From Fimbriimonadaceae bacterium (GTDB taxonomy: Bacteria; Armatimonadota; Fimbriimonadia; Fimbriimonadales; Fimbriimonadaceae), in assembly GCA_019638775.1 (NCBI GenBank), contig JAHBTD010000007.1:1-38541 (forward strand): DNA of 38,541 nucleotides, written 5' to 3'. The translations under genes and the position numbers were made by a program. Shown here piece by piece: positions 1,244-22,948 of the stretch (positions are counted from its first letter, which is position 1; every line of letters begins with the position of its first letter). The notes below the pieces were generated by a model. It saw nothing but the letters and a program-made list of their open reading frames with translations. It was not told the DNA's origin and searched no databases.

Positions 1244-1696
1244 TCACCTCCACGGTTCCGGTAACGGCATCACGCTCACATGCGTCGCTTTAGCCCGGAC
1301 TCGTACCACCCGCCCCATCAAACTCACATCCACCAGCACATCCTCACCGTCCAAGGCTCGGACGATGCCCGTCATCTGCGCATATGGGCCCGAACTCACC
1401 TGCACCACGTCGGCCACCTTGGCCAGGAGTGGTTCAACATTGCTAAGGTCCTCGAAGAGGTCGCTATCCAGCAAAGGAAGCGCTCGCACCACTCCAGACA
1501 GCCGCTTGATCACGGGAACGGCCGTTGGATCACAGTGAGCAATCACATAGCCCTTTGTCGGACGTTCCACGTCCGTGCACCCCAACTCCTGGAGCTGCAA
1601 GGCCACGTGTCGTTCACGGCCTGGCGTGACATCAAACGCCCACCGTGCATGTAACGCATTCTCAGTGGAGCACGCCTCTGTTTGTCTGTCGCTCAC
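1244..1696 (-). CDS. NusG/Spt5-like transcription elongation factor (NGN + KOW)
   Basis: A 150-residue protein starting at GTG 1696, which has a near-ideal AAGGAGG five bases upstream; a longer frame from 1855 would run into the transglycosylase gene and lacks that site. Residues 17-85 read as an NGN domain (ARWAFDVTPGRERHVALQ, then TKGYVIA). Residues 96-140 are a clear KOW domain (VVQVSSGPYAQMTGIVRALD, then GRVVRVRAKATHVSV). NusG-family proteins bind the RNA polymerase clamp and keep elongation processive; specialised paralogues (RfaH, LoaP, plasmid ActX) act on particular long operons. The short NGN loops and total length look closer to archaeal Spt5 than to a housekeeping NusG of about 180 residues. 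It lies between the lytic transglycosylase and the HD protein. A dedicated antiterminator for transfer genes is inferred from context. Confidence 0.85.
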   Translation of the reverse strand: MSDRQTEACSTENALHARWAFDVTPGRERHVALQLQELGCTDVERPTKGYVIAHCDPTAVPVIKRLSGVVRALPLLDSDLFEDLSNVEPLLAKVADVVQVSSGPYAQMTGIVRALDGEDVLVDVSLMGRVVRVRAKATHVSVMPLPEPWR

Positions 1697-1737: not shown

Positions 1738-2361
1738 TCATCGCAGCAAGCCACGGGCTCGTCTGATGCCTGCGAGGCGCTCCAATGCCCGATACACCTT
1801 CCAGCTGTAGCCCGCGATGTTGCGACTGCCGTTGTAACGGCCTACGGCTGTCCACGTTTCTTGGTACTCATTGATCTTCTGCCGCAAGACAAAGGCAGCC
1901 CATTGGATATTGATACAAGGATCGAGAAAATGGACTGGATCAATTTTGTACTGCCGCATGTGCACGCTATTGATCTGTGCAATCCCCACATCAAAATTCG
2001 CCCCCGCCTTCCACAGTTCAGCAACCAGATCCGTCGCTTGCTTGAAAGAAAGTGGTCCTCGCCGATCCCCCTTGCCGTCCCGATTCACATTCACCGCATG
2101 CGGATCCCCTTCACTCTCCACTAGAATAATGGCTTCCAATATTTGCACGGTCACCGCGTAGCGATTCGCCGCCGCCACAACACAACTGTGGTTCACATAC
2201 CAAAACCGGTCCGGAGGCATCTCCGCCGCAACACTGTCCGGCAAGACACCGAGACATACCACCGCAAGACAGAACCACGTCGAACGGCGACTTTTCGGTC
2301 TGGAGAATGCACCCAGAGGCCCACCATACCCCCGTCTTAACAGGTGCCTGTGTAGGTGCAT
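1738..2361 (-). CDS. Lytic transglycosylase of the conjugation apparatus (VirB1/TrbN-like)
   Basis: A 207-residue secreted protein. After a basic N-terminus, a hydrophobic signal peptide (about residues 28-46, ending VAA) precedes an SLT fold. The probable catalytic glutamate is E82 in ILVESEGDP, and the family's GIxQIN motif is present as VGIAQINS near residue 126. Such enzymes cleave the MurNAc-GlcNAc bond without hydrolysis and open the peptidoglycan for the secretion channel; conjugation systems usually carry one (F orf169, RP4 TrbN, VirB1). The ATG used overlaps the end of traN by 25 bases and has only a weak ribosome site, so the true start may differ slightly. The fold and catalytic motifs are clear. 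Confidence 0.9.
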   Translation of the reverse strand: MHLHRHLLRRGYGGPLGAFSRPKSRRSTWFCLAVVCLGVLPDSVAAEMPPDRFWYVNHSCVVAAANRYAVTVQILEAIILVESEGDPHAVNVNRDGKGDRRGPLSFKQATDLVAELWKAGANFDVGIAQINSVHMRQYKIDPVHFLDPCINIQWAAFVLRQKINEYQETWTAVGRYNGSRNIAGYSWKVYRALERLAGIRRARGLLR

Positions 2362-4295
2362 ATCTTCGTCGCCATTTCCTTCGTGATCACAGCCGGGTCA
2401 ATATTCGCTGAAACATTTTTGTACCATTCCGTGAAATCCATCGCCTGGAAGTTCAAAGCGCTGAACTGATCGACCGTAAATCCGTCGCACTGGGGCGCAT
2501 CCGCTGATCCCCAGGTCATGCCCAACTGCACACGGCCTTGTTCCTGCACCATCCGACCGAGCTCGGATTTCATAGTGCAGTAGACCTCTTCCTTTCGGAG
2601 GCACACACTGCCGACCAGAAAGGAGCCTTTATCCACACAATGTGTCCCAATTAGATGAGCCTTTCGATCGTGTTTATCCCTCGCAAGCGCGATCTCCTCC
2701 TCAGAGCATTTCCCAATCAATTTATCGGGGTCCGAATCGCAGCAATTGATTAGTGATCGCCCGATTGTGCTGAAATCACAGGTGCTCCTTTTGCCCGTGA
2801 AGATACGCAGACGGTCCGGATCCCAATCTTCTTCGACATTCTTGGTCATCGCCAGCCAGGTGGCCGCTAACGCCAGATTCTCATTGGGTGGCGTACTGGT
2901 ATCCACGCAAAACGGCACAGGACTGTCTGGTTTCCCACACTTCGTGCATTGAGTAATCGGTTGCGTCGTCGAACATTCCGACGGTCCCGGACACTTGTAG
3001 GTGTTCTCGTACATCAAGCAATATCCCGTCCCCGGCTGCACCGATGCGCAGCGAGAGCTGACTTGATTGCAGCCCTTGTCTCGATACTCGCCACAGGTGT
3101 CCCCGGCCGTGGACGTGACATCCCAGGTTTGCTCCTCTTGAAAGCATCCCGTTAAGGGCGCCACGCTGTACGTATCAAGAAAGGTTCCCGTTACCATGAC
3201 CGCAATCGAATGCGACTCGTAAGTAAATGTAAACGGAACTTGCCAGCTGAGCGGGCCGGTGGGACTGAAGGCGCCCATCGTAAACGTCATGGGATACCCA
3301 AAGCATGAGCACTTGCTATTGCAGTAGGCCGGCGAGCCATTTCCAGAGGCCGTCGGGTTCGCCGGAGTCAACACGTAAGGCCCGGTCTTCACCGAGCCAA
3401 CATTTGTGCAGCCGTATTTGTCTTCTCCGGCGGAATTGCCAGTGACGTTCAAGCCGACCACCCATCGAGTTCCATCCCAGATAGGAAACGCCGATTCGAT
3501 CGTAAAATTGCCCATGGCCATTCCCGGCGCATGGTCGTGCGCGTTGAATCCAGAAGTCCCCCCGGTCAGCACGGTGGCATACGGTTGAGCACACTTGAGA
3601 TCCCGCGCAGCTCCATCGAGACAGGTCGTAGTCACCAGTGCGGCGAGGCCACTGGCGCCAGCCGCTTCTAGATCCTTGCACCCATTGACCTCCGTCTCAG
3701 AGGTATAGGGAGGGCTGGGAATTCCAGGAACCGTGCACGCGTTCGGTAGCAGGGTGGGGTTGCGAATCTTGAGGCAGGTCTGCCGTGAGCCCCCAGGCAC
3801 TTGGCAGGTCCCCGTGACGCCAGCCCCTTCGGTGTAACTCGTGCACATATTCACCACGGAACAGCTCTCCGTCATGATGGAATCGGTCGGCAGCGTCGCT
3901 GCCGTCGATTGCGCCGTCGTCACCGGGCTACTAGTCCGTAGATCCCACCCATCTCGGTCAATCCTGCTCTGTTGGATTTTCGAGTAACGCTCATCGGAGC
4001 TCGCCGCCGCACCGCCGGCCGCGCTCAAACTGCCAGGATCATCGTAATACCTCTCTTCAGCAGCCCCAGAGCACCCTGCCGTGACACAACCCGGCGACCC
4101 TGAGTACTGCGGCACTTTGGTCATGTTCGGCGCCAGAATACCTGCACCGACTAATCCTGAGGCCTTCTGCCCCTCTACCTCACACTTCGCTTTGAGGTAC
4201 GGATCGTCAATCCCACTGCAATCTGCGCGTACCTCCACAACACCACACACCAAACAGATCGCGAGGCAAATCCCTATGAGCATGCGCTTCATCAC
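2337..4295 (-). CDS. traN: TraN, cysteine-rich outer-membrane mating-pair stabilisation protein
   Basis: A 652-residue protein with a cleavable signal peptide (ends EVRA before DCSG) and many scattered cysteines, many in CxxC or CxC arrangements (for example CTKCG, CSCFG, CCDSD). Size, signal and cysteine load fit F-type TraN (about 600 residues), an outer-membrane protein exposed on donors that contacts the recipient surface and fixes mating pairs. Folding would need the periplasmic thiol enzymes encoded in the same element (the DsbC-like protein and TraF). A GTG at 4295 and an ATG at 4292 share one GGGGAGG site, so the start may be either. The variable middle part, which decides recipient preference in known TraN proteins, cannot be matched to a known type by eye. 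Confidence 0.85.
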   Translation of the reverse strand: MMKRMLIGICLAICLVCGVVEVRADCSGIDDPYLKAKCEVEGQKASGLVGAGILAPNMTKVPQYSGSPGCVTAGCSGAAEERYYDDPGSLSAAGGAAASSDERYSKIQQSRIDRDGWDLRTSSPVTTAQSTAATLPTDSIMTESCSVVNMCTSYTEGAGVTGTCQVPGGSRQTCLKIRNPTLLPNACTVPGIPSPPYTSETEVNGCKDLEAAGASGLAALVTTTCLDGAARDLKCAQPYATVLTGGTSGFNAHDHAPGMAMGNFTIESAFPIWDGTRWVVGLNVTGNSAGEDKYGCTNVGSVKTGPYVLTPANPTASGNGSPAYCNSKCSCFGYPMTFTMGAFSPTGPLSWQVPFTFTYESHSIAVMVTGTFLDTYSVAPLTGCFQEEQTWDVTSTAGDTCGEYRDKGCNQVSSRCASVQPGTGYCLMYENTYKCPGPSECSTTQPITQCTKCGKPDSPVPFCVDTSTPPNENLALAATWLAMTKNVEEDWDPDRLRIFTGKRSTCDFSTIGRSLINCCDSDPDKLIGKCSEEEIALARDKHDRKAHLIGTHCVDKGSFLVGSVCLRKEEVYCTMKSELGRMVQEQGRVQLGMTWGSADAPQCDGFTVDQFSALNFQAMDFTEWYKNVSANIDPAVITKEMATKICTYTGTC

Positions 4296-4308: not shown

Positions 4309-4800
4309 CTATCGACGCGTGCCTAACCGAGCCGTATCCAATGAGGGCACCGTCATCTCGTCCATCCCTACCGCTTCTCCCAGTGAATTTCCGTCCGGCG
4401 GATGTCGAGCGGACTGGTCCCTTGCAACGAAGGGGGACAGTTCACCGGCCAAAATCGTCCCAAGCGCGTCACGATCCATAAACTGAATCGGCGTTCCCCG
4501 CATGATGATTTGTGCCATACCCCACCCCCAGTATCGTGCCGTCACCTGATGAATCTGAATGTCGAAACCAATGATCAGGTCAGCTCCCAACGCCGCAGCG
4601 CTTTGCGCAAGCCTATTCACCATGCTCTGAGTCGCATGGACGATCGGACTGTCATACGTCTTCGCGCGCCCTCCCCAGAAATCGGTGAATCGGACAACGG
4701 CATCCCGCCAGGAAGCGATCCCGACGGTCTCGATCTGAATCAATGCCTGAAAATACCGATAGGTATGTCCGGGAATGACATCCACCGTAAGAATTTTCAT
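4309..4800 (-). CDS. YbjQ/UPF0145-like protein
   Basis: A 163-residue cytosolic protein with no signal peptide. It shows the pattern of the YbjQ/UPF0145 (DUF74) family: an opening strand (MKILTVDVIPGHTY), a long helix ending ALGADLIIGFDIQIHQV, and a hydrophobic strand (YWGWGMAQIIMRGTPIQF). The family forms pentameric rings; its function is poorly known, and it is sometimes annotated as heavy-metal-binding without firm proof. The C-terminal 40 residues are polar and probably disordered. It starts six bases after the coiled-coil lipoprotein and precedes traN by about 13 bases, so it is co-transcribed with transfer genes. Its role there is unknown. Confidence 0.65.
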   Translation of the reverse strand: MKILTVDVIPGHTYRYFQALIQIETVGIASWRDAVVRFTDFWGGRAKTYDSPIVHATQSMVNRLAQSAAALGADLIIGFDIQIHQVTARYWGWGMAQIIMRGTPIQFMDRDALGTILAGELSPFVARDQSARHPPDGNSLGEAVGMDEMTVPSLDTARLGTRR

Positions 4801-4806: not shown

Positions 4807-5778
4807 CTATCGCTTTTCGGTATCAGACGGTGACACCTCGGCCTTCTTCGGAGCATCTGCGTCGATACTGATCGTCAATGTGTTCATGGGCGCGGCCATC
4901 ACTTCCCCATCGACAGCCGGAAGAAGGGGACGTCCAGTTGAAGCTTTTCCGGACATCCCAGAAGCTAGAGGAGGAGGCACCAGTTCCGCGTTTTGCCCAT
5001 TCCCCCCACGGAAGCCATCCAGAAATCGTCGTAACCATCCTTTGTCCGCATCGGGCTTGGTTCGAGGCGATTCGACCTTAGCCTCTATCACCCTCTGAGG
5101 AACGGGCATCGGCACATCCGGTTTGGCAGGGACAGTGGTCGTCGCCACTGGACTTGGAGCGACCGCCAGGCTCGTCCCGCTCGGCTCAACACCCGAGCCC
5201 CCAGCGCCTACGCTCCCCTCCATATTCGGACTGCCAGCCTTGGCGACAGGTTCAGTTTTGGGAGCACTTCCTGACTTACCCTCACCCAACTGGACGCGCG
5301 TTTTCTGGACGTCGGGAGCACCCCCTCTAGCCTGCAAGGACTTCCCAAGTTTCCCAATCGACAGTTCAACACGTTCGAAGCGATTGGCTAAGGCGACCGT
5401 CGTTTCTGTGAGGGTTTCGATCTTCCCCGCAATATTTTGCAGGCGCGCGTCGACTCCGGACAGTTGTTGCGCCTGCTGCGCAAACTGCGCCCGCTGGGAC
5501 TCGTACTGATTCTGGGTGTCTTTCACCACCCCCTTCACGGTCAGGATGTCCCCCTGCAGTTTTTCCGCTTGGGCCTTTAGTCCCATCTGCTCTTGCGCAA
5601 CATGCCGATACACCTGGGATACATTGTCGACTCGCTGGGACAGCTCGTCGTGCTCGGTCTCCATGACTTCCTTCACCGCGAGTTGATGCTGGTACTTGGT
5701 TTCCAAATCCTGATATTCACCGGTGCTGACGCAACCGGACAACAGTGCGAGACTAAGGGCTGCCATGCGTTGCCACAT
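4807..5778 (-). CDS. Coiled-coil lipoprotein of the transfer operon
   Basis: A 323-residue protein with a short lipoprotein signal (LALLSGC, lipidated C16) and a good AAAGGAG site before its ATG. Residues about 20-150 form long heptad-patterned helices rich in Q, E, K and V, a predicted periplasmic coiled coil that probably oligomerises. Residues 150-250 are Gly/Pro/Ser/Ala-rich and likely disordered, followed by a short basic segment (WLRRFLDGFRGG) and a Pro-rich tail. I do not recognise a named family. Lipid anchor plus periplasmic coil suggests a structural or spanning part near the mating apparatus. It sits between the helical protein gene and the YbjQ-like gene in a compact run. Confidence 0.6.
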   Translation of the reverse strand: MWQRMAALSLALLSGCVSTGEYQDLETKYQHQLAVKEVMETEHDELSQRVDNVSQVYRHVAQEQMGLKAQAEKLQGDILTVKGVVKDTQNQYESQRAQFAQQAQQLSGVDARLQNIAGKIETLTETTVALANRFERVELSIGKLGKSLQARGGAPDVQKTRVQLGEGKSGSAPKTEPVAKAGSPNMEGSVGAGGSGVEPSGTSLAVAPSPVATTTVPAKPDVPMPVPQRVIEAKVESPRTKPDADKGWLRRFLDGFRGGNGQNAELVPPPLASGMSGKASTGRPLLPAVDGEVMAAPMNTLTISIDADAPKKAEVSPSDTEKR

Positions 5779-5822: not shown

Positions 5823-6467
5823 CTATTGGTTCAAAAATGCTTTCACCGCGCCCCGCGGCTCATACTCTGTCACCGTCACGCGAGCGACATGCCCGATGAC
5901 ATCGTGCAAGGCCACTACAAGCTCATCGACGGCCTGAAAATGTTTCACATACGGAGTGAGATCTTCCGCTCGGAGACGAATGCTATTGAGCGCGTTATCT
6001 AGGGCGCGAATCACCGGCACCAGTCTCACCGTGTCTCCGACGCGGGGCGTAATGACACGCGCATTGCGCCACGCCGCCTTCACGCTCCGTTCTTTTAGGT
6101 CGGGATATGGGTCTTGAGGGAGCAACTCGAACTCCCCCACTCCAAGCTCTCGCAAGATCACCTTTGCCCGCGCCACCCATTGCTCCACACGAGCCAACTC
6201 GTTGCGCACTTGCTCAATGGAGAGCTGAGATCCTGCTGCCCGCCGAAGACGATGAATTACCTTGTCAAACATGTACAGCATGGAGACACAGGCCATCCCC
6301 GCTTTTGTTTGTGGTAAAAGGAGCACCGAATTCGGATCTTCCAGCCGCCGCTTGTTCTCCTCCGCCCGATCGGGCCTTCGTCCATTCGTCGGAGACGCGC
6401 TCCGAAGAGACTGGCCCTCGCGCCGTACCATCCCCAGTTGTCGCTCTGCGTCCACCCCATGAGCCAT
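5823..6467 (-). CDS. Helical protein of unknown function next to the NusA-like gene
   Basis: A 214-residue protein with no signal peptide or membrane segment. The first 50 residues are polar and probably disordered. The rest is mostly amphipathic helix: one pair around residues 60-115 (FDKVIHRLRRAAG to ILRELGVGEFELLP) and another near residues 150-205 (VPVIRALDNALNSIRLRAED to VVALHDVIGHVARV). I do not recognise the family. The ATG has a strong GAGGAGGTGAGGC site and lies 15 bases after the NusA-like stop, so the two are co-expressed. A partner of the NusA-like protein is conceivable but rests on adjacency alone. Confidence 0.5.
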   Translation of the reverse strand: MAHGVDAERQLGMVRREGQSLRSASPTNGRRPDRAEENKRRLEDPNSVLLLPQTKAGMACVSMLYMFDKVIHRLRRAAGSQLSIEQVRNELARVEQWVARAKVILRELGVGEFELLPQDPYPDLKERSVKAAWRNARVITPRVGDTVRLVPVIRALDNALNSIRLRAEDLTPYVKHFQAVDELVVALHDVIGHVARVTVTEYEPRGAVKAFLNQ

Positions 6468-6482: not shown

Positions 6483-7136
6483 TTACGCCCGAGCTGTCTT
6501 CCCCAGATCCGCTTCGTCCACGAGCACCAGTCCATAGCCGGTCAATTTGCTGGCCACCGCAGCATTCATCCCCTTGCGACCAAGAAACTGTGCGATCGTG
6601 CCCCGTTCAACAATGACTCGCGCCTGATGTTCTTCCCGATACACGTCCACTCGTCGCACTGACCGGCTCGGGGCCGGCGCTAATGCCTCACGAATGTAGG
6701 CTTCCACCTCCGTGTGATACTTCACGAGTGCGATCGTGCGGGATGTGTAGGTCCGGAACTCGTACAACAGAGGCTTGCAGGTCGCGATGACATCTTCCCC
6801 CGTGCGATAAGTCTCGACCGCAATCTTCACAAACGACGCGGCTTGAGCCGTCGCCACACGCTTGATGTGCACATGGTCGTCCGCCAACACCGGAGCCAGC
6901 ACTAACTCCGCAATACGCCGGAAATAGTGCATCGATCGCTGCGACAGCATCGGAAACTCGTCACCGACCTTGTACACAGCTCCCATCAATGAGTCGCGTA
7001 CCTTGTACTGACGGTCGGCATACTGATGCGGCAAGATGGCATACCTCCCGATGGAATCCGCCCACAGCAGATATGCGCTGTGCCCCGGATCCATCCGAAT
7101 GACCCGAGCCATTACTAAGTCTCCCACCTGCACCAT
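6483..7136 (-). CDS. NusA-like RNA-binding protein (S1-KH-KH, no N-terminal domain)
   Basis: A 217-residue protein colinear with the central part of NusA. Residues 1-65 are an S1 domain (VQVGDLVMARVIRMDPG, ILPHQYADRQYKVRDSL), ending in MLSQRSMHYFRRIAELVL where NusA has its LSRTxPxFLxxLFE motif. Residues 80-155 match KH1 and the linker (HIKRVATAQAASFVKIAV, IREALAPAP as in NusA ALSPA). KH1 has lost its GxxG loop (KPLLYEF in its place). KH2 at 160-206 is intact: VIVERGTIAQFLGRKGMN, with the GxxG at 186-189, then ASKLTGY. Missing are the N-terminal domain that docks on the RNA polymerase flap (about 125 residues) and any acidic C-terminal repeats. NusA modulates pausing, termination and antitermination by binding nascent RNA. 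This gene opens the left transfer operon, divergent from the lipoprotein pair. An antitermination role is inferred. Confidence 0.85.
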   Translation of the reverse strand: MVQVGDLVMARVIRMDPGHSAYLLWADSIGRYAILPHQYADRQYKVRDSLMGAVYKVGDEFPMLSQRSMHYFRRIAELVLAPVLADDHVHIKRVATAQAASFVKIAVETYRTGEDVIATCKPLLYEFRTYTSRTIALVKYHTEVEAYIREALAPAPSRSVRRVDVYREEHQARVIVERGTIAQFLGRKGMNAAVASKLTGYGLVLVDEADLGKTARA

Positions 7137-7218: not shown

Positions 7219-8517
7219 ATGCCCAACAGGTATTACCGGATCACTCCCACTCCGCTTCTATCCTCATCCAGAGGGAAGATCCGCTCTCTTGCGTACCTTG
7301 CTTGGCTGTGGTCTAGTCGGACGATCAGCGTGCTCCTCCTCGTGCTCGTCACCTTGGTATCTTGTGCCCCCGTCTTCACGCCGACCACTTTGCAGAACTT
7401 CAAAGAATCGCGTGAAACCAGCTCAACGACGGCTGTAGAACGTCCTCGATTGGCACTATCACCCCACAGTGATGGCCTGGGATGGACGGTGAGAGTCACC
7501 CAAACCGTTGAGGAGAAGAATCGGATCAGGCGAGAAGAAGTCTGGGGAGGATATACCTATGAACGTCGGCTCAATCTTGTCACGATGGTGGGAGGGGGAC
7601 TACTCTGTGCTCCAAATCTCCTGTTGAATACCCTCTTTTCCATGGGAACACCAAACCAGCCGGGATGGAGTTCACCATGGCAATACTGCCTGGCCGCCGC
7701 CGGATATGACGTGCCTGGCCGCGCCGATACCCGAACTCGGATCGCTGATGACCTCGATCCCCAGGTTCAGACTGTTACGCGGATAATTGTGGACGGTGAC
7801 CTTCGGCTCACTTTTGCCGCCGATGGACGGGACCGCATTGGGATTGCCGTCCCTGTGAGTAAGGATTCTCAAGGGACGCACATCCGCCTTCGATGGCTTG
7901 CAATGGCTTTACGGGAACAGGGCGTGAATCCTGCCGACGTCCCTGACGGGACCGTCGAGATTTCCTACAGTCCAACTGTCGGCAACCCCGGCCCGACCAC
8001 ACAGTTGCCGATCGACGGGCACGTACTCACCGCTATGCTGCAGCACGATCTCGCAGTGCTCCCCCAAGATCGCTGGCCGAAGCAGCCTCGCCTCAGGCTG
8101 GCGGTCAACAATGACTGGGGACACGAACAGTCCCAGTTGATAGTAGACAGGCTTATTGGCCGTATGAAGGAGCGCGGCCTTCCGCTGGTCATCCGAAACG
8201 AACGGTATCGGAAACTAGTTCCTGTCCAGGTCCGGCAACTCGCTCCGTTCTTTAATGATGAGCGACAACCGTCAGCCGGCATGGGCACCGGAGCAAATCT
8301 GCTCGTATCCATCGACATCGCCTCTGCTTCAGATCAGGGGCTGCTGCTCACCACGACTCTTGTCTCTGTTGAGACCGCACAAGTGCTGGCTCAGTTTGTC
8401 CTCGAATGTCCGATCAACGCCGTCGCGCCAACGGCCGAAACTCTGGCGGCAGTTGTCACCGATCTCGTCCTGCCCCATGGTCCCACTCTCACACGGGGAT
8501 GGTTCGTCACACCATGA
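7219..8517 (+). CDS. Outer-membrane lipoprotein with FlgO/CsgG-like C-terminus (paralogue 1)
   Basis: A 432-residue protein. A hydrophobic stretch (residues 36-48) ends in a lipobox (TLVSC, C49). Residues about 70-200 contain the segment SPHSDGLGWTVRVTQ, which recurs as TPHHDQQRLTIRVTQ in the next gene, making the two paralogues. Residues about 290-420 resemble the FlgO/CsgG/LpoB fold: helix (QLIVDRLIGRMKERGL), then GANLLVSIDIASAS and LLLTTTLVSVETAQVLAQF, the family's strand pattern for ring-forming or envelope-assembly lipoproteins. It lies on the opposite strand to all surrounding transfer genes and overlaps the next gene by four bases (ATGA). A role as an accessory outer-membrane channel or assembly factor is a guess. 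Confidence 0.6.
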   Translation: MPNRYYRITPTPLLSSSRGKIRSLAYLAWLWSSRTISVLLLVLVTLVSCAPVFTPTTLQNFKESRETSSTTAVERPRLALSPHSDGLGWTVRVTQTVEEKNRIRREEVWGGYTYERRLNLVTMVGGGLLCAPNLLLNTLFSMGTPNQPGWSSPWQYCLAAAGYDVPGRADTRTRIADDLDPQVQTVTRIIVDGDLRLTFAADGRDRIGIAVPVSKDSQGTHIRLRWLAMALREQGVNPADVPDGTVEISYSPTVGNPGPTTQLPIDGHVLTAMLQHDLAVLPQDRWPKQPRLRLAVNNDWGHEQSQLIVDRLIGRMKERGLPLVIRNERYRKLVPVQVRQLAPFFNDERQPSAGMGTGANLLVSIDIASASDQGLLLTTTLVSVETAQVLAQFVLECPINAVAPTAETLAAVVTDLVLPHGPTLTRGWFVTP

Positions 8518-9638
8518 CACGATATGGCACATTCCTCATCTGCTTCCTCGCCACCAGTGCGGTCGGCTGTTCGTCTCTCATACTCTCCAACACCCCGGTG
8601 CAGGGAGAAAATACCTCGACTCGAGAAATCGCGCGCACTCCGATCGATGTACCAGAGGTTACCCTTACACCCCATCACGATCAGCAACGCCTCACCATTC
8701 GCGTGACACAACGCTCCCAAATCACCCTCGAGACGGACACGCCGATGAAGGTCGAGGCACGACGCTATGTGTTTTCGCCTACCGCTCCCCTTGCCGGCGC
8801 TGTTCATTGTCCGGTACTGACTGTTGCCTATGTGATTTCAGCCGGACACCTAGGCTCACAATCTCTTGCTCCCGCCTGCCGACGGCTCCTGATGCAGGAA
8901 CCTCTTGCCGGATCACCGCGGGTTGCCACCGAAATCGAACACCGCTACGAGACACACACCACAACAGAGCCCGTGCGCTACGCCACACTGAGAGTGGCAT
9001 GGGACGATGCGATACATCCGCCACTGGTCTATGACGTGAATCCCGATGGAGAGGTGTCCATTCCTCAACACGCACTCCGTTCGGGGACGGAGCGCGACCC
9101 GTCGACGCTTCCCACACTGTCTATCCTCGTCGACAATCGCGTCCTCTGGACTCATCGCCTTACCCCTAGCGAGATGACACCAAGTGGCCCATTGCCAGAC
9201 GAACCGCACACGGCAGGTACGAGCTGGCCACCGATCGTCGCACTCGTCCTCGAACCGCTCGATGGCGCTGCACCACCTGCGTTGAGAGCATGGGGACGTT
9301 TGGTGACACAGGCTTTATTGGAACGCCACATCTGTGTGGTCGCACCAATAACCTTCGCTAAAGACTTACAGGATGAGCTGCTACTCCACCAATCCGGGCG
9401 GATCAGTGACCAGACGGCTGTTCACTTTGGCAAATGGATACCCGCCACTGTGGCGCTCACCATCAGAAACGGGGCCGCCAATCAGGGAATAGCTATTCTA
9501 GAATTTGTGGATATTCAAAGGGCGGAACGAATCAGATACGACGTCCTACGGTATAGCAGCGACTGGAAAGAGGATGCGCAGATGGTGAAGGCCTATATGC
9601 AAACGATCTTCCCCAAAGGATATCAATCCTGCTCATAG
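8514..9638 (+). CDS. Outer-membrane lipoprotein, FlgO/CsgG-like (paralogue 2)
   Basis: 374 residues from an ATG that overlaps the upstream stop as ATGA. This start is preferred over a longer frame from 8406 because it opens directly on a lipoprotein signal (FLICFLATSAVGC, C19). An N-terminal beta-rich region (residues about 40-120) matches its neighbour. The C-terminal part contains a helix (RAWGRLVTQALLERHICVV) and strands (TVALTIRNGAANQGIAILEFVDIQRAERI) in the order expected of a FlgO/CsgG-like domain. It ends five bases before the convergent small secreted protein gene, with no obvious terminator in the gap. The pair probably forms a two-gene operon; function unknown. Confidence 0.6.
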   Translation: MTRYGTFLICFLATSAVGCSSLILSNTPVQGENTSTREIARTPIDVPEVTLTPHHDQQRLTIRVTQRSQITLETDTPMKVEARRYVFSPTAPLAGAVHCPVLTVAYVISAGHLGSQSLAPACRRLLMQEPLAGSPRVATEIEHRYETHTTTEPVRYATLRVAWDDAIHPPLVYDVNPDGEVSIPQHALRSGTERDPSTLPTLSILVDNRVLWTHRLTPSEMTPSGPLPDEPHTAGTSWPPIVALVLEPLDGAAPPALRAWGRLVTQALLERHICVVAPITFAKDLQDELLLHQSGRISDQTAVHFGKWIPATVALTIRNGAANQGIAILEFVDIQRAERIRYDVLRYSSDWKEDAQMVKAYMQTIFPKGYQSCS

Positions 9639-9643: not shown

Positions 9644-10039
9644 TCACTTCGCATCCTGTACCTCAAGCACGCAATCACCATACACAGTGACAAGCAATGA
9701 TCCTGGATAGGTCCTATAGGTCTTCTTGTCTGCCTGAAGGTCAGAGGTTTCCCCAACAGTGTTTACGATTCTAATGTTAACCATCGCTCGCCCTCTGCTG
9801 GTCGTCCGGCACTGTTCTACAACTTCATGCAATACAGAGAGAGAATTCCCGCTGGATGAGGGGCTAAATTGCTGCGATCCGACAGCAATGGTTGAGCGTT
9901 TGATTGGTACTCCTGGAATCTCTGAACCAACGAACGATCCCAGCCATCCATCTTTTGGCGTCTCAGCTCTCGCGCCTCCTGACTGACTGATAACGATCGC
10001 GACCAGGACCATGAAAAGCGCTAGCTGACACAGCCGCAT
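9644..10039 (-). CDS. Small secreted protein closing the main transfer operon
   Basis: 131 residues with a classical signal peptide (cut after GARA, about residue 25) and a GGAGG five bases before the ATG. The mature part has a helix with one cysteine (SVLHEVVEQCRTTSRGRAM), then strand VNIRIVNTV and a C-terminal strand with a second cysteine (VTVYGDCVLEV), so one disulfide is possible. The helix followed by a VNIRI strand faintly recalls the YbjQ fold, but this is not enough to assign it. It follows traG by about 39 bases and is probably co-transcribed. Unknown periplasmic function. Confidence 0.6.
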   Translation of the reverse strand: MRLCQLALFMVLVAIVISQSGGARAETPKDGWLGSFVGSEIPGVPIKRSTIAVGSQQFSPSSSGNSLSVLHEVVEQCRTTSRGRAMVNIRIVNTVGETSDLQADKKTYRTYPGSLLVTVYGDCVLEVQDAK

Positions 10040-10078
10040 GAGAACCTCCGCTCCGGACAGAACGATTCACTGCCACTT

Positions 10079-13000
10079 CTATTTACCAGTATTCGGGGAC
10101 GATGGCTGCGTCCGTTCAACTCTTAATAACGACTCTTGGCCTTCCTGCCATTTAGGCATAGTCCCAAACGCATTCGACGCCTCTTCACCCATCATGCCGA
10201 GGGCCGATGTACGCACCGCATTATAAGCGGCATTGGCAGCAAAGTTCTGTAATTCTTCGGGAGACATGCTTTGTGCACGCCCGGTCTTTTCTAAATGTTC
10301 GACAGAACTGCGCGCAAACGAGATAGCATTATCCATCACTCCGGAATATTCTTTCCACCAGGCGCCCATATTTTGATGCGAGTCCAAAAGACCGCTCGGT
10401 CCCCCACCTCCACCAGGGCCATTCGGCACGGGTCCACTACCTGGCTGAATCGGTGTTCCTCCAACCCCTCCCCCACCAAATTTCCCCATTCGTCCTTTGA
10501 GGATCAAATATCGCGAAGCCCCATCCATTCCGATCCGACCAAATTCAAGCCCATAAGCAATCGCCTCGTCCGTCTGCGTAGGGTTTGTAATATCGGTGCC
10601 TTTGGCCGCAAACGCCATTTGTGTAATCGTTAGATTCGCCCCACTGTCATGATGAAATTGCACACGATTGAAGTCATGAAAATCGGAGCCTTTGTGACCG
10701 GACGAACTCAGCACATTCCCGCTACCGTCAAGTACATCGTTAACCGCAAATCCATGTGCCGCATACTCATTCTTCGATAGCTCCTTCGTATTTGCAATCA
10801 CGCTCGCCCCATCGGGCGACTGTGAATACTCCACTACCTGGAAGTGTTCTTGCCCTTGTGCATCAGTACGGTACTGACCGATTTTCCCTGTTTGCAAGTC
10901 CGTTACTTCTGACGCAATTAACTGGCCAGACTGAGGACTATAGTAGAACGTCCCCTGCAGCTCTTTGGTCTGCCCGGGATGCATAGCATCAGGCACGGTG
11001 AAAATGCCGGATTTACGCTCATTGTTATAGTACTGTGAGTCCAATCCGCCCAACACCGAATGATACAAGACTTCGCGCTGGCCGCCATCATCCTTCATAG
11101 GACCAAGGACTTGTGTGTCTATCGCTCCGTTTTTCGCCGCCACGACCTTCACGGTCTGATCGATAGAGCCGCTCATAGCCCCGCTGTTTGGATCCTCCAG
11201 TGACCTGGCGATTCCCCACACCTCGTTGCCTTCCCCATCTTTCATAAAGGTGGAATAGGTGTTATCGGTCACGTTGGTAATCGTCCCGCCCAGTAGCTTG
11301 CGCTCGCCAGTCTCACTACTGGTCGGGCCGTAGTAGAGATTGGCGAATACATCCATATCGCGATGGCCGTCATTGATCCGACGCCAGCCTGACTCTTTAT
11401 CGATCGACTGTACCTCGTTGTTGTACCCGCGCAGGGACTGCTCGAACTCAACGGTCATTTGACGCGATCCCCTCATCTGATCGCTATAAACGCGGACGCC
11501 ATCGAGCTCGACTGCAGAACTTTTGAACGCTCGCCCTTGGGCGTCCACAGACACGCCGTCAAAGGTACTTACCGAATGTGTGCCTCCTGGAGCCATCATG
11601 GTGTCCTCAACCCCGTACTGCAAACCCGACACACCAGATCCTTTTTCGATTATGTCCCTGGTTTGAGACCCAGAGGTCCCTTTAAACGCCACAATGTTGC
11701 CATTATCAATAAGGCCCGTCACATCGCGGGCCGGCGCCCCCGGTTGTTGCGCATACCCATGAAACATCTCAACTTGATGTCCATCTTGTCCCATCACATT
11801 TAACTGCGTGAACTGCCCAGACAAATGAGTGCCATCCACCAGATTACGTTCCCCGGAAATACTCTTGGTACCTCCCTCCCGCCCGTCAAAAAAGCTCACC
11901 TGGCCGTCGTATAACAGCGCATTGGCTTGAAACGCCGGAGAACCTGGCTTGCTATTGTCGATGGCAGAGCCGAAGAAGGCTGTCGGCACTCCTGGTTGAT
12001 TGGCTTCCCCATGACTCAGAGCCGTGAACGTGCCGCTCAGGGTGTAGGAACCGACCGTGTGGGTGTCGTGGGCAACACCGCTCGTGCCTGACTCAAAATG
12101 TTCCGTGGCTTCCACCAAGAACTGTCGTCCTGATGCATCGGTGCCCAATGTTCCTGTCACTGTGTGCGTGTGACCACCCTCATCACTGGTCAGACTGTAA
12201 CTGGAATAGATGTCTCGCGGATGCACCGGGTCCGAGCGATCGACTGACCCAAACGCCCTGACATATCCCTCCATCGGCCGAGTCACCCCATCTTTCCCTA
12301 AGACCATCTGTTCCGCTTGCCCAGTCTCCACAAAATAATTGGAACCGTCAGGGGAAACGAACGATTCCCTGTGGACGCCGGCCTCCGTATCCTTGTTGTC
12401 AAATCCTCGGACGGCCCCGCCCTCGGTCGCCAGAAAATGAAACTGTCCATCGCGTTCTACCAGTCGCCCGGTATACGATTGTTTCGCACCCATCGTGCTC
12501 TGAAATGTCGACTGTGTGAGGGTGTCTACCCGCTCGCCTGGCCCACGCTCACCCATCATCTGGACAAATCCGGCATCGGGACGTGTCTCGCCCGCGACTT
12601 CCAGAAACAACGGCACATTCCCCGATCGTGCAAAACTTTGACTACCGTCTTCAGCAATCGTACGCGTCTCGGACAGGCCTTTCCGAACGGATTGTTCCGT
12701 GCGCGCCACTAATTCTCCGGTATCCTGATTTTCCTGCACAAGCACGCTCTTCCTGGAGCCATCCTCCCCCATCGTATCGAAGCGATGCTCCACCATCGAA
12801 CCAAACACCGAGGTTTGTGCATCGACCTGCTTCCCGGACTGTGGATCAAACATCTTGTGACGGAACACCCCACTCAGCAGATGCCCCTTTGAATCCATTG
12901 AATACTGTCCTTCTGGCCCCTTGTAGTTCTGAATGCCGTTCGCGCCAATACTGGTGATGCCGCCCTGGGAGTCGTGGATCTCACTCGTGCCGGATTGACT

Positions 13001-14539
13001 ATCCACACGAAACCCACCCTGACCAGTCGGCACAGTCATCTGTGGTTCGACGTCATGGCCGATCATCTCGCCGAACTGGGCCCCACGCTGTTCGTGTCGA
13101 TAGGACGGGCCTTCCTCCAAATTGGCACCAAGCCCACGTGAGAACTGTCCTCCCACTTGCCCCGCGACGGTTTCCGCAGTCCGCGATCCTGCCAGGATCG
13201 ATCCCAACACCTGGCTTCCGCCCCACATCAGACCGAAACCGATCGCTGGCACGAGCCACACATAATCTGCGGCTGTGGAATTCAGCATGGCGACATGTTC
13301 ATTGATTCTGTCTAACGTTGCATAGTTGACGGATTGGCCAACCCCGTTTGAGCTCAGGATCGCGCCGAGCCGGCTTCGCGCTTCCCAAAACATGACAAAA
13401 TTCAGCACGGCATACAGAGGCGACCAGGTCTGGAGCCACATGAACAAGCGCCAATAGGTGCCCATCAACCGTGACATCCCAGGCGAAATGGCAAGCACTA
13501 GAAGGAACGGGGTCATGATGTACACAACCCCTTCCACAATGGTCCGTAATAGCGGTACGACCTTTTGAGCGACATAGGACTTCGAGTAGCTTTGGAACTT
13601 TAAGTCCTTTTGGATCGCCTGCTGCTGCAGAAGCACAGTGTCCGCAGTCGCCGCGCGCCGTTTGGCATCGGCGGATTCGGCGTTTTTCCACGCATGGATG
13701 AGCAGCACATTATTAATCATGTCTCGGGCCGATTGCCCGACGGATAACAAGAGATTCGCCCGGATGTCCTCAGTGAGCCCTTCCTCATCGCCGGTGGCCG
13801 GATCAAGCTGCAACTGTGTCCGCAAATGCCGCATCGCCCCTTCGTAGTCAGGCTGCCCCGTGGTATACGCAGGAAGGATGAGAGAACTATAGAAGTCGGG
13901 ACACACCCGCGGGGCCGCTTCCAACGTCCCACCTGTATATCCGAGTGCCGTGAGTGCGTTATTCGTAGCCCCGATATCATTGAGCAGATTCGGAGAATTC
14001 ATCAGCGTCCCGAGGTTCTTCTGGAGCAGGCCCACCTCCCGAAACACACACATCATAAAATATGAATCGGTATTGCGGGCCAGATCCGAGTCTTGCAATC
14101 TCGCATTGAGGACTTTTTGCAGATCGAATAGCGGGCGATTGAATGACGCTTGTCCCTGGGTATATTGCACGGGCATCGGAAACGACGCTTCGACAAGCTG
14201 AGTCGTGTAGTACCCTACTTGCCCCGAGAGGTATGCCGGTAACGCGATCGCCAGCGGCACACTGTTCACAATTTGATCCGGCACATCGGGATTGACTTGG
14301 TCTTCCACGGACACGTCGACCGTGATTCGGACACTGACAAAGAGAATGAAAAATGCCCCGACGACCAGCGGGACCAAGAAGCGCCGATTGAACACAAAAT
14401 ACACGAGTCCGAACATCGCGAAGACAAGAAGTGCGAGCTCCATCAAGCTTTCGAAGCGTCCGGTGGTCATCATGATCCGGATGCCCAGCAGAATCTGCGT
14501 CAGCACATCGCCGTTGCCAAACGTATAGATCGTCCACAT
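10079..14539 (-). CDS. traG: TraG, inner-membrane mating-pair protein with greatly extended C-terminus
   Basis: 1,486 residues; F TraG has 938. The N-terminal TraG_N domain is recognisable: MWTIYTFGNG, two membrane helices at about 30-75, a periplasmic part, and further helices near 340-450 (VYIMTPFLLVLAI, FMWLQTWSPLYAVLNFVMFW, VPAIGFGLMWGG). TraG_N works with TraN in mating-pair stabilisation and is needed for pilus assembly. From about residue 470 the protein is a Gly/Ser/Thr-rich, beta-prone periplasmic region with loosely repeated units (forms such as VTGTLGTDASGRQFLVEATE and LSGTFTALSHG), several hundred residues longer than in F, ending in a helical tail (about 1,400-1,486). In F TraG this end mediates entry exclusion together with TraS. 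No traS candidate is obvious nearby. Strong GGAGAGG start site; 44 bases after traH. Confidence 0.9.
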   Translation of the reverse strand: MWTIYTFGNGDVLTQILLGIRIMMTTGRFESLMELALLVFAMFGLVYFVFNRRFLVPLVVGAFFILFVSVRITVDVSVEDQVNPDVPDQIVNSVPLAIALPAYLSGQVGYYTTQLVEASFPMPVQYTQGQASFNRPLFDLQKVLNARLQDSDLARNTDSYFMMCVFREVGLLQKNLGTLMNSPNLLNDIGATNNALTALGYTGGTLEAAPRVCPDFYSSLILPAYTTGQPDYEGAMRHLRTQLQLDPATGDEEGLTEDIRANLLLSVGQSARDMINNVLLIHAWKNAESADAKRRAATADTVLLQQQAIQKDLKFQSYSKSYVAQKVVPLLRTIVEGVVYIMTPFLLVLAISPGMSRLMGTYWRLFMWLQTWSPLYAVLNFVMFWEARSRLGAILSSNGVGQSVNYATLDRINEHVAMLNSTAADYVWLVPAIGFGLMWGGSQVLGSILAGSRTAETVAGQVGGQFSRGLGANLEEGPSYRHEQRGAQFGEMIGHDVEPQMTVPTGQGGFRVDSQSGTSEIHDSQGGITSIGANGIQNYKGPEGQYSMDSKGHLLSGVFRHKMFDPQSGKQVDAQTSVFGSMVEHRFDTMGEDGSRKSVLVQENQDTGELVARTEQSVRKGLSETRTIAEDGSQSFARSGNVPLFLEVAGETRPDAGFVQMMGERGPGERVDTLTQSTFQSTMGAKQSYTGRLVERDGQFHFLATEGGAVRGFDNKDTEAGVHRESFVSPDGSNYFVETGQAEQMVLGKDGVTRPMEGYVRAFGSVDRSDPVHPRDIYSSYSLTSDEGGHTHTVTGTLGTDASGRQFLVEATEHFESGTSGVAHDTHTVGSYTLSGTFTALSHGEANQPGVPTAFFGSAIDNSKPGSPAFQANALLYDGQVSFFDGREGGTKSISGERNLVDGTHLSGQFTQLNVMGQDGHQVEMFHGYAQQPGAPARDVTGLIDNGNIVAFKGTSGSQTRDIIEKGSGVSGLQYGVEDTMMAPGGTHSVSTFDGVSVDAQGRAFKSSAVELDGVRVYSDQMRGSRQMTVEFEQSLRGYNNEVQSIDKESGWRRINDGHRDMDVFANLYYGPTSSETGERKLLGGTITNVTDNTYSTFMKDGEGNEVWGIARSLEDPNSGAMSGSIDQTVKVVAAKNGAIDTQVLGPMKDDGGQREVLYHSVLGGLDSQYYNNERKSGIFTVPDAMHPGQTKELQGTFYYSPQSGQLIASEVTDLQTGKIGQYRTDAQGQEHFQVVEYSQSPDGASVIANTKELSKNEYAAHGFAVNDVLDGSGNVLSSSGHKGSDFHDFNRVQFHHDSGANLTITQMAFAAKGTDITNPTQTDEAIAYGLEFGRIGMDGASRYLILKGRMGKFGGGGVGGTPIQPGSGPVPNGPGGGGGPSGLLDSHQNMGAWWKEYSGVMDNAISFARSSVEHLEKTGRAQSMSPEELQNFAANAAYNAVRTSALGMMGEEASNAFGTMPKWQEGQESLLRVERTQPSSPNTGK

Positions 14540-14583
14540 GATGCGCTATCCTCTCCCTCACATCGCAGACAGACTTACTCCGA

Positions 14584-15918
14584 CTACCGCAGCGATCGCA
14601 TTTCGCCCTGCGTCTTCGTCAACTGCATAAGCTGGTTGATGTTATTCACCATACGTTGCCGCTTCGCGAGACTCTCACTAGCCCCCCTTAGGATCTGATG
14701 CAGCCGCCCCTGAAAGTCTTGCAGATTGCCTGGCCACTCGGGTTTGACCTTTTGGATATAGCTAACGTTCCTGGACGTTTCGGTGGCCGCCCACTTCACC
14801 CATTGATACCCCATGTCCGCAGCGACCACTTCTGAAGACAATCGCGCAATCTGATTGCCGACATCCCGTGGACGCCCATAATCGGCGAGCATGGTCAGAA
14901 TGGGGACCGGGGTCATGTTGATGATTTGCTGATCTGTCGCGCTGATAGCTGAGCCGGAGTAGAGGTCTTCGATCAGGTTACTCATGGACGTATACACGCG
15001 ACTCTCGAATCCTTCGATATCGGTCGCGTCAGTAATCGTGGGGTTCAAACATTCCGAGTCGCCCCCACAATTAAACACTTTCACCACGTCGCCCAGATGA
15101 CTATCGACCAGCTGTTCGAAGGTCATCGTCGGATCGCGGGTTTGAACATCGCCATCGTTCCCGACTATAACGGTCCCGGTGACCGACATCACCATGACGA
15201 TGAGATTCTGATCCAGGCCAGCCTGCGTCAGGACATCCCACACCAGATTGCCAGTGACATCGTATTCCGTGCCTTTCAATGCTGAGGCCGCATCCGCATT
15301 CGACTGGTTCTTGACGGTATCCCGGTCTTCAAACACGTCTCCAATGGCGCCGCCCGCTTCCTTCATCTTCTGCCAGGCATCGCCGAATCGACTCGCGAGC
15401 TTTTGTTTGGAGGCTTCGTTCCCGGCTAGCGCTTTGCCCAATTCAATCCCTGTTTGACAGGGTTGGATCCGTCCCGCAGCATTGAGCGCTCTCGCAGCCG
15501 CTTCAATCTTGTTGAGCACGTCCGCGCAGTCTTCACAAATGGCTTTCATCGCCAGCTGGAAAGCGTACCCCAAGACGGCACCGGTCCCGATTTGCTGCAG
15601 CAATTGGACGTACCGATCTAGTTTGCCGTAGGAAAACGAGCCCAGGTAAACGTCGATGCCCTGGCAGCCCACGCTCAATCGCGGCGGGGCAATCGACCAC
15701 AACCGCATCGGGTCCTGCCACAAACGGACCGAGACCCCGCCGCCGCTGAAGTAGCCTCGACTTTGACTTTCGTAGGCACCTGGAGGACTCGTGATCCCGA
15801 CACCCCACGACGTGAACATGTTCGTAAGGGCATCATTCATCGACTGCGCCTGTACCAGGGGAGGCCAGACCAGTACTGCCCACATACACACTCCCACCAG
15901 AATCAGTTTGCTTCGCAT
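14584..15918 (-). CDS. traH: TraH, periplasmic pilus assembly protein
   Basis: 444 residues (F TraH: 458) from the ATG at 15918, preceded by AAAGGA; a frame extension to 16005 would overlap traF and lacks a signal. The signal peptide (LILVGVCMWAVLVWPPLVQA) is followed by the TraH hallmarks: an amphipathic N-terminal part (MNDALTNMFTSWGVGITSPP), a glycine-rich YFSGGGVSVRLW segment, a central CEDCADVLNKIEAAARALN helix and a C-terminal coiled coil. TraH interacts with TraF, TraU and TrbI in the F system and is needed for pilus extension and mating-pair stabilisation. It lies between traF and traG as in F. Confidence 0.92.
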   Translation of the reverse strand: MRSKLILVGVCMWAVLVWPPLVQAQSMNDALTNMFTSWGVGITSPPGAYESQSRGYFSGGGVSVRLWQDPMRLWSIAPPRLSVGCQGIDVYLGSFSYGKLDRYVQLLQQIGTGAVLGYAFQLAMKAICEDCADVLNKIEAAARALNAAGRIQPCQTGIELGKALAGNEASKQKLASRFGDAWQKMKEAGGAIGDVFEDRDTVKNQSNADAASALKGTEYDVTGNLVWDVLTQAGLDQNLIVMVMSVTGTVIVGNDGDVQTRDPTMTFEQLVDSHLGDVVKVFNCGGDSECLNPTITDATDIEGFESRVYTSMSNLIEDLYSGSAISATDQQIINMTPVPILTMLADYGRPRDVGNQIARLSSEVVAADMGYQWVKWAATETSRNVSYIQKVKPEWPGNLQDFQGRLHQILRGASESLAKRQRMVNNINQLMQLTKTQGEMRSLR

Positions 15919-15928
15919 CGTGTGTCCT

Positions 15929-16831
15929 TTATCCCTGAGACCGTCGCTCGCCCAACATTCCTCGGTTACGCAACAACACCAGCAAGCGCTCCCGTAGATC
16001 CGCATTCGTCATGAGACCGGCTCCGAGCGGCTTTAAGAAGTTCTCCTCAGGAATTGCCAAATAAATCATGGGCACCATATGCACGCCCACATTCTCCGCC
16101 ATGCCATTGTTAGTGGCGGGCTGCGGGTACTCCGGCAATCCCACCCCGTCCAGCGACACAGGTTTCACCGTCAGTCCGTAGGTATCGGCAAAGACCTTTA
16201 ATACCTTGGACTGTTCTTGACAAAACGGGCAGGTCGAGGTGAAGAAGAAGAACAGTCCGACCCGGTCGGCTGTGCCCGCCAGAAGCTGCTCTTCGGTGTT
16301 CCGCTTGATCTCGGCTTCGACGCTATGCCCATAGGTGGACGTGGGGTGTTGCGACGCATAGTCGAGTTTGGGGTCCGTGTACATGGCGATCTGCCATGCA
16401 TCGGTGAAGCGTTGCGAGCGGTCATACGCTTCCTTTTGCACTTTGATGTAAATCGTCACATTCTCGACCGAAGGATGATCCAACGCGCGTTCCTTCTTGG
16501 CCGACACCAGTTCACGCAATACCGTCATCGGAAGGGCGTTCAACTTCACGCCCTCGACCGAAAGCCCCTTAAACAGAGTTCGGTACTTCGACGGGTCCAG
16601 CCAAGCCTCTGGTGGTAAGCTATCCATCGTAACGGGGACAGGACTCTCTTCTGCGTCCTCCTCTGCCTCGGCTGACGGGTCCTGATAAGAGAACCACCCC
16701 TGCCTGGGATGGTCGATAAAAGTCTGAGACCCAGGAGGCTCAGCGGCCAGCACAGCACTGCTCACCACTCCCACCGAGCAGAAGGTCACGCAATACCAAG
16801 CTAGAGCATGCAGCAGTTTTGTCGTTTCCAT
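15929..16831 (-). CDS. traF: TraF, periplasmic thioredoxin-fold conjugation protein
   Basis: 300 residues from ATG 16831, which opens directly on a signal peptide (METTKLLHALAWYCVTF to VLAAEPPG) and overlaps the end of traU by 31 bases; a longer frame to 16918 lacks a signal. The C-terminal half is a thioredoxin fold with an intact CPFC active site near residue 200 (FFFTSTCPFCQEQSK), where F TraF itself has lost both cysteines. It is therefore probably an active thiol oxidoreductase acting on TraN, TraU and TraH. A cis-proline loop follows (VHMVPMIYLAIP). Residues 60-150 are the TraF-specific helical part. The ribosome site is weak, suggesting coupling to traU translation. Confidence 0.9.
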   Translation of the reverse strand: METTKLLHALAWYCVTFCSVGVVSSAVLAAEPPGSQTFIDHPRQGWFSYQDPSAEAEEDAEESPVPVTMDSLPPEAWLDPSKYRTLFKGLSVEGVKLNALPMTVLRELVSAKKERALDHPSVENVTIYIKVQKEAYDRSQRFTDAWQIAMYTDPKLDYASQHPTSTYGHSVEAEIKRNTEEQLLAGTADRVGLFFFFTSTCPFCQEQSKVLKVFADTYGLTVKPVSLDGVGLPEYPQPATNNGMAENVGVHMVPMIYLAIPEENFLKPLGAGLMTNADLRERLLVLLRNRGMLGERRSQG

Positions 16832-17889
16832 AGCAGCCACACAAAATCCTCTCCAACGGCTGGCACGATTTTCCCGAGCCCCCACATCATGAGTGTCCGT
16901 CCTAGAGGCTGACAGCACGGGGGAGGGAGTCCTGTGTTTGGAATCGGCCAGAGTAATTGAAACTTGTACTGGCTTTTCACAATGAGTGCGGTCGGGATGT
17001 CCTCACACAGCAGCGGACCATTAGCGGAGGTCCAAAACTCTGTTCCCGCGCGGGCCAGTTTCGCTAACAATCGCGTCATCGACAGCGCGGCAGGTTTGAG
17101 GTCCCCATCCGCTCCTGAGACATGCCCAGTCGGCGGATACATGAATCCAAAGCTCCCGGCGCACCAGAACAGCGGATCAATTGGGAAACCGACTGCTGCA
17201 GCTACCGAATCGGCCGCGCAGGCCGCGAGTGCCACCGGATTGGCCAGGACCAATGCCTCCGGAAAGAGAATGAGTGAAATCAGGTCGTCGTCCCACAAGG
17301 GATCAATCTCGGAGGCATAGGCCAAATCGATTTCGTCTGCGATCCCGGTAGGATTCAGACACAGAATGTCCATTCCGATACCAACGATGGCCCATAGGGG
17401 AAAAACGAAATAATGCACATGAAAAAAGGCATAATTTAGCTCGGAGTCCATCTGTGTCGTAGCCATGCCACGCCCGATGTAACTGAACCCCCCGGCCAAA
17501 GACACACCGAGCGTCGGAAAGCACAGTGGATCGTGGACCGCCTCGACAAGATTCTTCGGCTCCCAGATGCCCAGAGGTAGCCCAGGAATGCAGATCGGAC
17601 CAAGACACACACACCCACACAACTGCGGCGGAAACGGGGCGTGTCCAGGACCGATGGCCGGTTCGGTAAAATCTTCTCCCAGGTTAAACACCGTGACCCC
17701 GCTGAGAGAAATGGGAAACATGCACTCCCAACACGTCGTAGCGAGACTATTCGCCAACACATTGGTCCCTGTCGTGCACACCGCCTCTGCGGAGCCCGAC
17801 GGCCACAGAGTCGCCACGCTGATCAGGACACAACTCAGGCAGACCAGCAGCAGCATATGCTGTATCCGTCTTTTCGAGGGCTTATTCAT
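16801..17889 (-). CDS. traU: TraU, periplasmic DNA-transfer/pilus protein
   Basis: 362 residues (F TraU: 330) with a signal peptide (LLLVCLSCVLISVATLW to GSAEA) and many cysteines, including CWECMFPISLSGV and CGCVCLGPICIPGLPLG, both typical of TraU, and the family's C-terminal pattern WKRQNCC. In F, TraU is needed for DNA transfer more than for pilus growth and acts in the periplasm with TraW, TrbC, TraF and TraH. The ATG overlaps the end of the trbC-traW gene by eight bases, after GGAGGAGGTGG, so expression is coupled. Confidence 0.93.
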   Translation of the reverse strand: MNKPSKRRIQHMLLLVCLSCVLISVATLWPSGSAEAVCTTGTNVLANSLATTCWECMFPISLSGVTVFNLGEDFTEPAIGPGHAPFPPQLCGCVCLGPICIPGLPLGIWEPKNLVEAVHDPLCFPTLGVSLAGGFSYIGRGMATTQMDSELNYAFFHVHYFVFPLWAIVGIGMDILCLNPTGIADEIDLAYASEIDPLWDDDLISLILFPEALVLANPVALAACAADSVAAAVGFPIDPLFWCAGSFGFMYPPTGHVSGADGDLKPAALSMTRLLAKLARAGTEFWTSANGPLLCEDIPTALIVKSQYKFQLLWPIPNTGLPPPCCQPLGRTLMMWGLGKIVPAVGEDFVWLLWKRQNCCML

Positions 17890-19087: not shown

Positions 19088-19132
19088 GGTACCTCCATTT
19101 CAGAATGTCTGTATGGAGTATTACCGACCTAG

Positions 19133-22154: not shown

Positions 22155-22178
22155 ATTCGCTCCTCTGGGTTCCTTCCA

Positions 22179-22910: not shown

Positions 22911-22948
22911 GTCGCATGCCTCCTCCAGAATCCGCCCACTCGACTTCT

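Follow-up and report, generated by a model that had tools for sequence, protein, structure and literature searches.

A NusA-like gene without the RNA polymerase-binding domain and its NusG-like neighbour in F-type transfer clusters of Nitrospira genomes

Transfer genes and the NusA-like and NusG-like genes of the window

Profile searches revealed that the window, which is the whole stretch of DNA analysed (contig C7, 38,541 bases), carries an F-type transfer system. TraL, E, K, B, DsbC, C, a signal peptidase, TrbC, U, F, H and G were recognised by profile, and TraA and TraV were placed by position and conserved gene order (Table 1). A second minus-strand cluster has a NusA-like gene in first place and, further down, genes for TraN, a lytic transglycosylase and NusG-like and HD proteins. 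The product of the gene directly after the NusA-like gene gave no Pfam, NCBIfam or convincing PDB match. A Pfam MiaE_2 match in the window was rejected, being under its cut-off. Contig C10 of the same assembly carries a sister version of the element at about 86% identity and is uninformative on the presence of the NusA-like gene because it stops inside TraG. An IS605-type TnpB gene of the window (30399-31805, plus strand) lies in a stretch without an aligned counterpart in C10. A further plus-strand gene (35213-36547) encodes a Gp3-like, recombination-directionality-factor-like domain (E=1e-39), adjoins PD-(D/E)XK-type and RecD-like genes and is conserved in relatives.

Table 1. Features of the transfer clusters, the NusA-like and NusG-like genes and the GTAATAC sites
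Feature	Coordinates	Strand	Basis
HD-domain protein, truncated by contig end	1..1242	-	profile
NusG-like gene (NGN + KOW), 150 aa, GTG start after AGGAGG ribosome-binding site	1244..1696	-	profile, model, Foldseek
Lytic transglycosylase (SLT)	1738..2361	-	profile
TraN	2337..4295	-	Pfam/NCBIfam profiles
YbjQ-family protein	4309..4800	-	profile, E=4.2e-13
Lipoprotein-like coiled-coil protein	4807..5778	-	ORF, profile search, synteny
Conserved protein, family unknown, next gene after the NusA-like gene	5823..6467	-	syntenic in relatives
NusA-like gene, S1-KH1-KH2, no N-terminal RNA polymerase-binding domain	6483..7136	-	NCBIfam, PDB, profile-profile, tree, Foldseek
S1 domain, residues ~1-77, invariant LSQR near end	6906..7136	-	profile-profile alignment, nine-relative alignment
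KH1 domain, residues ~78-155, GxxG loop deleted	6672..6905	-	profile-profile, alignment
KH2 domain, residues ~156-210	6507..6671	-	alignment
KH2 GxxG (GRKG)	6570-6581	-	alignment
GTAATAC, 100 nt upstream of NusA-like start	7230..7236	-	motif search
Two divergent genes (7219-8517; 8406/8526-9638), adjoining the NusA-like gene in most relatives	7219..9638	+	ORFs, synteny
Main F-type transfer gene run: OmpA-like, TraA, L, E, K, B, DsbC, V, C, S26, TrbC, U, F, H, G, 9644 gene	9644..28204	-	profiles; order for TraA, TraV
GTAATAC, 37 nt upstream of TrbC-type gene	19118..19124	-	motif search
GTAATAC, upstream of likely OmpA-like start, head of main transfer run	28119..28125	-	motif search
GTAATAC, 49 nt upstream of 29224 gene	30088..30094	-	motif search
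Sigma region-2 gene	L038 731-1447 (contig C10); also L171, L163, L173		Pfam

The NusA-like frame (7136..6483, read on the minus strand) begins with ATG and encodes 217 aa; the plus-strand frame over the same interval is interrupted by stops. The NCBIfam NusA model (TIGR01953) matched residues 48-203 at E=2.8e-13, with a score of 49.6 bits against a curated cut-off of 253.4 bits, so that the criterion of the model was not met. PDB NusA chains matched the protein at E about 5e-7, and a profile built from nine relatives matched NusA structures at 9e-14. When these nine relatives were compared with six chromosomal NusA proteins, the profile-profile probability was 99.4% over 202 columns, covering NusA positions 132-345, which is S1-KH1-KH2 only. 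The protein starts at NusA position 132; it has the S1-KH1-KH2 order of bacterial NusA and is without the N-terminal RNA polymerase-binding domain. Open frames of the relatives span 215-249 aa. An AlphaFold model made with two sequences was weak (pLDDT 55) and its best Foldseek matches were all NusA; the assignment rests on the profile comparison and not on this model.

Comparison of the family members found that the GxxG of KH1 has been removed by a five-residue deletion rather than by mutation, and it is gone in all 17 members read. KH2 keeps its GxxG in 16/17, with G186 and G189 invariant across the nine relatives. The sole member read with an altered KH2 motif (GKAA) is G403:C4:90627-91262 (L205). 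LSQR stands where an LSRT-like motif was expected, and is invariant in the same nine relatives. The protein is a relative of NusA, not a NusA: both the polymerase-binding domain and the KH1 GxxG were tested for and are absent. That KH2 looks active is inferred from sequence alone.

The preliminary description of this locus, made from sequence alone, had proposed a stand-alone NusA-like protein in the S1-KH1-KH2 order without the domain that docks NusA on RNA polymerase, with an intact KH2 GxxG at residues 186-189 and a lost KH1 GxxG, at the head of a transfer operon. All of these claims held, although the strand had not been given, and the profile match to NusA over S1-KH1-KH2 that it had put forward as a check was positive. 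In the place of its LSRT-like linker stands LSQR, and it overlooked the NusG-like gene.

The family profile of the NusG-like protein matched NusG at E=3e-9, and the best Foldseek matches of its model were NusG and Spt5. An NGN domain followed by a KOW domain was found by both approaches, the NGN being well predicted and the KOW part modelled at low confidence.

Recurrence in Nitrospira genomes and evolution of the NusA-like gene

Alignment of TraU revealed ten relatives with 54-100% identity in Nitrospira or Nitrospirae genomes, including the complete chromosome of N. moscoviensis. The NusA-like gene was present in all ten genomes, nine of which also have an ordinary NusA with about 24% identity to the NusA-like protein. 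The NusG-like gene was found in 9/10 of these genomes and in 8/8 further genomes, and wherever both genes share a contig it lies 3-6 kb downstream of the NusA-like gene on the same strand. The order NusA-like, TraN, SLT, NusG-like, HD is kept across relatives as far as the contigs allow. These data show that the pairing and the gene order are conserved, and the recurrence beside traG/traN in related elements that had been proposed as a second check was positive. Seven of the eight further genomes have a second, weaker NusG match, mostly in frames of ~181 aa, which fits the housekeeping NusG. In the element J017 (L170 1852-2511) the NusA-like gene is present without a recognisable NusG-like gene or an upstream GTAATA motif; the partnership is therefore not obligatory.

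In the Nitrospiraceae, the family of N. moscoviensis, 17/175 genomes carry the NusA-like gene and 16/175 an F-type TraU, with both in 15. Co-occurrence of the two is thereby shown, the NusA-like gene being found in 15/16 TraU-bearing genomes versus 2/159 others (Fisher p=1.2e-18). Two genomes have the NusA-like gene without TraU; in both it lies on a short contig (21.6 and 9.9 kb), and TraU may for this reason be elsewhere or unassembled.

At the sequence-similarity sensitivity used, neither gene was found in about 70 non-Nitrospira F-type loci with flanks of up to 10 kb, and no such NusA-like gene was found in 72,556 PLSDB plasmids. Those PLSDB tblastn hits that were opened proved to be ordinary nusA beside rimP, and the rest were annotated as nusA or lay on megabase-sized records. 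Viral contigs scanned with TraG and TraU gave nothing; the single viral-contig hit (L001) covers only 48 residues inside a longer non-NusA protein of a virus-like contig. We regard it as likely that the family of elements with the NusA-like gene consists of Nitrospira-centred F-type conjugative elements.

Contigs of Nitrospira sp. RBC083 match the window at 98-99.4% identity over nearly all of the matched length, and identity between the NusA of the assembly itself and that of Nitrospira is only 44%. A search of the phylum around the assembly found no relative apart from the window, TraU being absent from all other of 291 genomes in that phylum; the lack of relatives there is probably explained by the assembly not being Nitrospira. 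Tetranucleotide composition left the host of the window undecided. The window is probably a Nitrospira contig binned with another organism, while recent transfer of the element instead of misbinning remains possible. Both the window (1-38541, G000:C7) and C10 look like Nitrospira DNA, and the chromosomal NusA of the assembly is not that of Nitrospira. The stated contamination of the assembly is 3.96%.

In the tree, a 100/100 branch sets the NusA-like proteins off as one clade from every chromosomal and phage NusA in the comparison. Their dN/dS was 0.06 between the window and S0bin1, 0.14 between N. moscoviensis and CR1.3, and about 0.12 between BO4 and Ga0074138, with synonymous sites near saturation; that of the NusG-like gene was about 0.2. 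The NusA-like gene is under purifying selection (dN/dS 0.06-0.14). A decaying piece of host nusA acquired by the element would account for the absence of both the N-terminal domain and the KH1 GxxG. This explanation is contradicted by the selection test, by the single fully supported clade outside every NusA compared and by open frames that are intact in every element found, and can be all but excluded. We conclude that the gene is a maintained, long-separated paralogue rather than a decaying fragment.

The GTAATAC motif and a region-2 sigma factor relative

The minus strand of the window holds four copies of a 9-mer, CGGTAATAC, all a short way upstream of a gene start as placed here; two of them precede the NusA-like gene and the first gene of the main transfer run. 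In six elements, GTAATA[C/G] was seen 16 times within 120 nt upstream of genes in the sense direction versus 2.2 expected, with 3 in reverse, the gene starts for this count being predicted by a simple ORF rule. It was not found upstream of about 355 sampled chromosomal genes of Nitrospira and of the assembly of the window. GTAATAC was also the most shared 7-mer upstream of the NusA-like gene, in 5/7 lineages versus 4 or fewer in 500 shuffles. Because the motif was spotted before testing, these counts are in part post hoc. The motif was present in six of eight later genomes, five of these six being closely related to elements seen before; one of the three new lineages had the exact motif.

The motif resembles the ops site, GGGCGGTAGCGT (PMC8955417), solely in CGGTA. 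At least four related elements encode, next to a helix-turn-helix gene, a sigma-70 relative whose only Pfam-recognised part is region 2 (E=6e-10). GTAATA[C/G] could then be the -10 element of this element-encoded sigma factor and not an ops-like site, in which case the Nus-like proteins would have no role in site recognition. The presence of the sigma relative in four related elements, the lack of a conserved -35 partner and the enrichment upstream of element genes, with none upstream of the sampled chromosomal genes, all speak for this. Against it, BO4, Ga138 and REEB have a purine-rich, RBS-like stretch between motif and start codon; their start codons lie 12-19 nt from the motif start, and the RBS-like stretch would go untranscribed if the motif were a -10 element. 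The exact motif is also missing in 2/3 newly seen lineages. The sigma explanation is a serious possibility, short of likely; the present evidence does not decide between the two roles.

Proposed function and comparison with known systems

Specialised NusG paralogues are well known. F-like tra operons have RfaH as their known antiterminator, which acts through ops sites to promote F tra transcription (PMC8955417), and some plasmids encode their own NusG paralogue inside tra operons (PMC7593976), ActX of R6K being a NusG paralogue (PMC13250579). LoaP antiterminates by antagonising NusA (PMC12691694). The NusG paralogue studied here arrives with a NusA that lacks the polymerase anchor, an arrangement that fits a dedicated antitermination complex, which we propose by inference. 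The cut-down NusA lies nearly always upstream of the NusG copy in the same cluster, which suggests that the elements bring their own factors for long transfer operons. The NusA-like protein would be a specialised NusA paralogue cut to its RNA-binding part, i.e. S1, a loop-less KH1 and an active-looking KH2. The NusG-like protein would bind elongating RNA polymerase via its NGN domain, and the NusA-like protein would sit at the exit channel bound to the nascent transcript, with RNA and its NusG-like partner holding it there in place of an N-terminal domain of its own. Together they may antagonise host NusA and NusG or take their place, and prevent early termination along the long transfer operons.

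Joint antitermination is the reading we favour, though it might equally well prove wrong: binding to RNA polymerase, antitermination and contact between the two proteins are all inferred, with no experiment behind them. Antitermination factors are usually encoded early (PMC8955417), and against this reading the NusG-like gene sits late in the cluster; J017, without a recognisable NusG-like gene, also counts against it. A terminator scan found fewer sites than in shuffles, and an Rfam search found no family; no nut-like RNA or boxA was shown. The role suggested in the preliminary description, an RNA-binding adaptor rather than a full replacement of NusA, fits the missing N-terminal domain and is likewise inferred, with no functional data.

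Alternatively, the NusA-like protein may be a competitor of host NusA that acts independently of the NusG-like protein. An undocked NusA-like protein on nascent RNA near the exit channel could relieve NusA-dependent pausing or termination on the element. This possibility is supported by the lack of the N-terminal domain, the retention of the KH2 GxxG in nearly all members and the one element without a NusG-like gene. Against it, the NusG-like gene accompanies the NusA-like gene nearly always and in a fixed order, whereas a stand-alone competitor would not need a partner.

It is also conceivable that the protein is an RNA-binding regulator off RNA polymerase, acting for example on translation or stability of transfer mRNAs or on its own operon. 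Stand-alone S1 and KH proteins commonly bind RNA, and the NusA-like gene is the first of its cluster, as autoregulators often are. However, the similarity is specific to NusA and follows the NusA order S1-KH1-KH2, and the cluster also encodes a NusG-like protein.

A bolder form of the joint antitermination reading, which can be offered only as a possibility, is that the elements carry a private transcription kit, consisting of the sigma region-2 protein, the NusA-like RNA-binding subunit and the NusG-like elongation factor, which may act on operons marked by the GTAATAC element. If true, this would be an antitermination complex whose NusA has been parted from its polymerase anchor, with a dedicated NusG paralogue holding it in place.

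The protein resembles bacterial NusA (TIGR01953; PDB 2asb, 6flq) in S1-KH1-KH2, in an LSxR-type motif after S1 and in the KH2 GxxG-x-N. It differs in the absent polymerase-binding domain, the deleted KH1 GxxG and an identity of only ~24% to the NusA of its carriers, and in that its gene belongs to a transfer cluster and is found together with transfer genes. The N-terminal RNA polymerase-binding domain is missing from archaeal NusA as well, which consists only of KH1-KH2 with no S1 (PMC7289017); the NusA-like protein keeps the S1 region and is encoded on a bacterial conjugative element, so that the KH1-KH2-only criterion is not met.

Like RfaH, ActX and LoaP (PMC12691694, PMC13250579), the NusG-like partner is an NGN-KOW protein of a transfer cluster, and its gene, like that of ActX in R6K, lies beside a lytic transglycosylase gene; unlike them, it is paired with a NusA-like protein. 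conAn of pLS20-type plasmids, comprising ConAn1 and conAn2 (PMC8955417), is similar in being an element-encoded control of a long conjugation operon. Neither a NusA-like/NusG-like pair nor a NusA paralogue on a conjugative element was found in the open-access literature searched, which leaves out most subscription papers. No specialised NusA paralogue was met with in that literature, in contrast to the well-known specialised NusG paralogues. A natural anchor-less S1-KH1-KH2 protein beside a NusG paralogue lets the RNA-binding part of NusA be tested alone, and the pair is a candidate antitermination module of conjugative elements in Nitrospira, an ecologically important nitrite-oxidising nitrifier.

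The preliminary description had known of no element-borne NusA of this kind; taken by itself, carriage of a NusA by an element is not unique. The 636-kb phage LR756504 carries a full-length NusA of 423 aa (L044 4557-5828), which is likewise borne on a mobile element; in contrast to the NusA-like protein, it keeps the N-terminal domain and falls with ordinary NusA in the tree.
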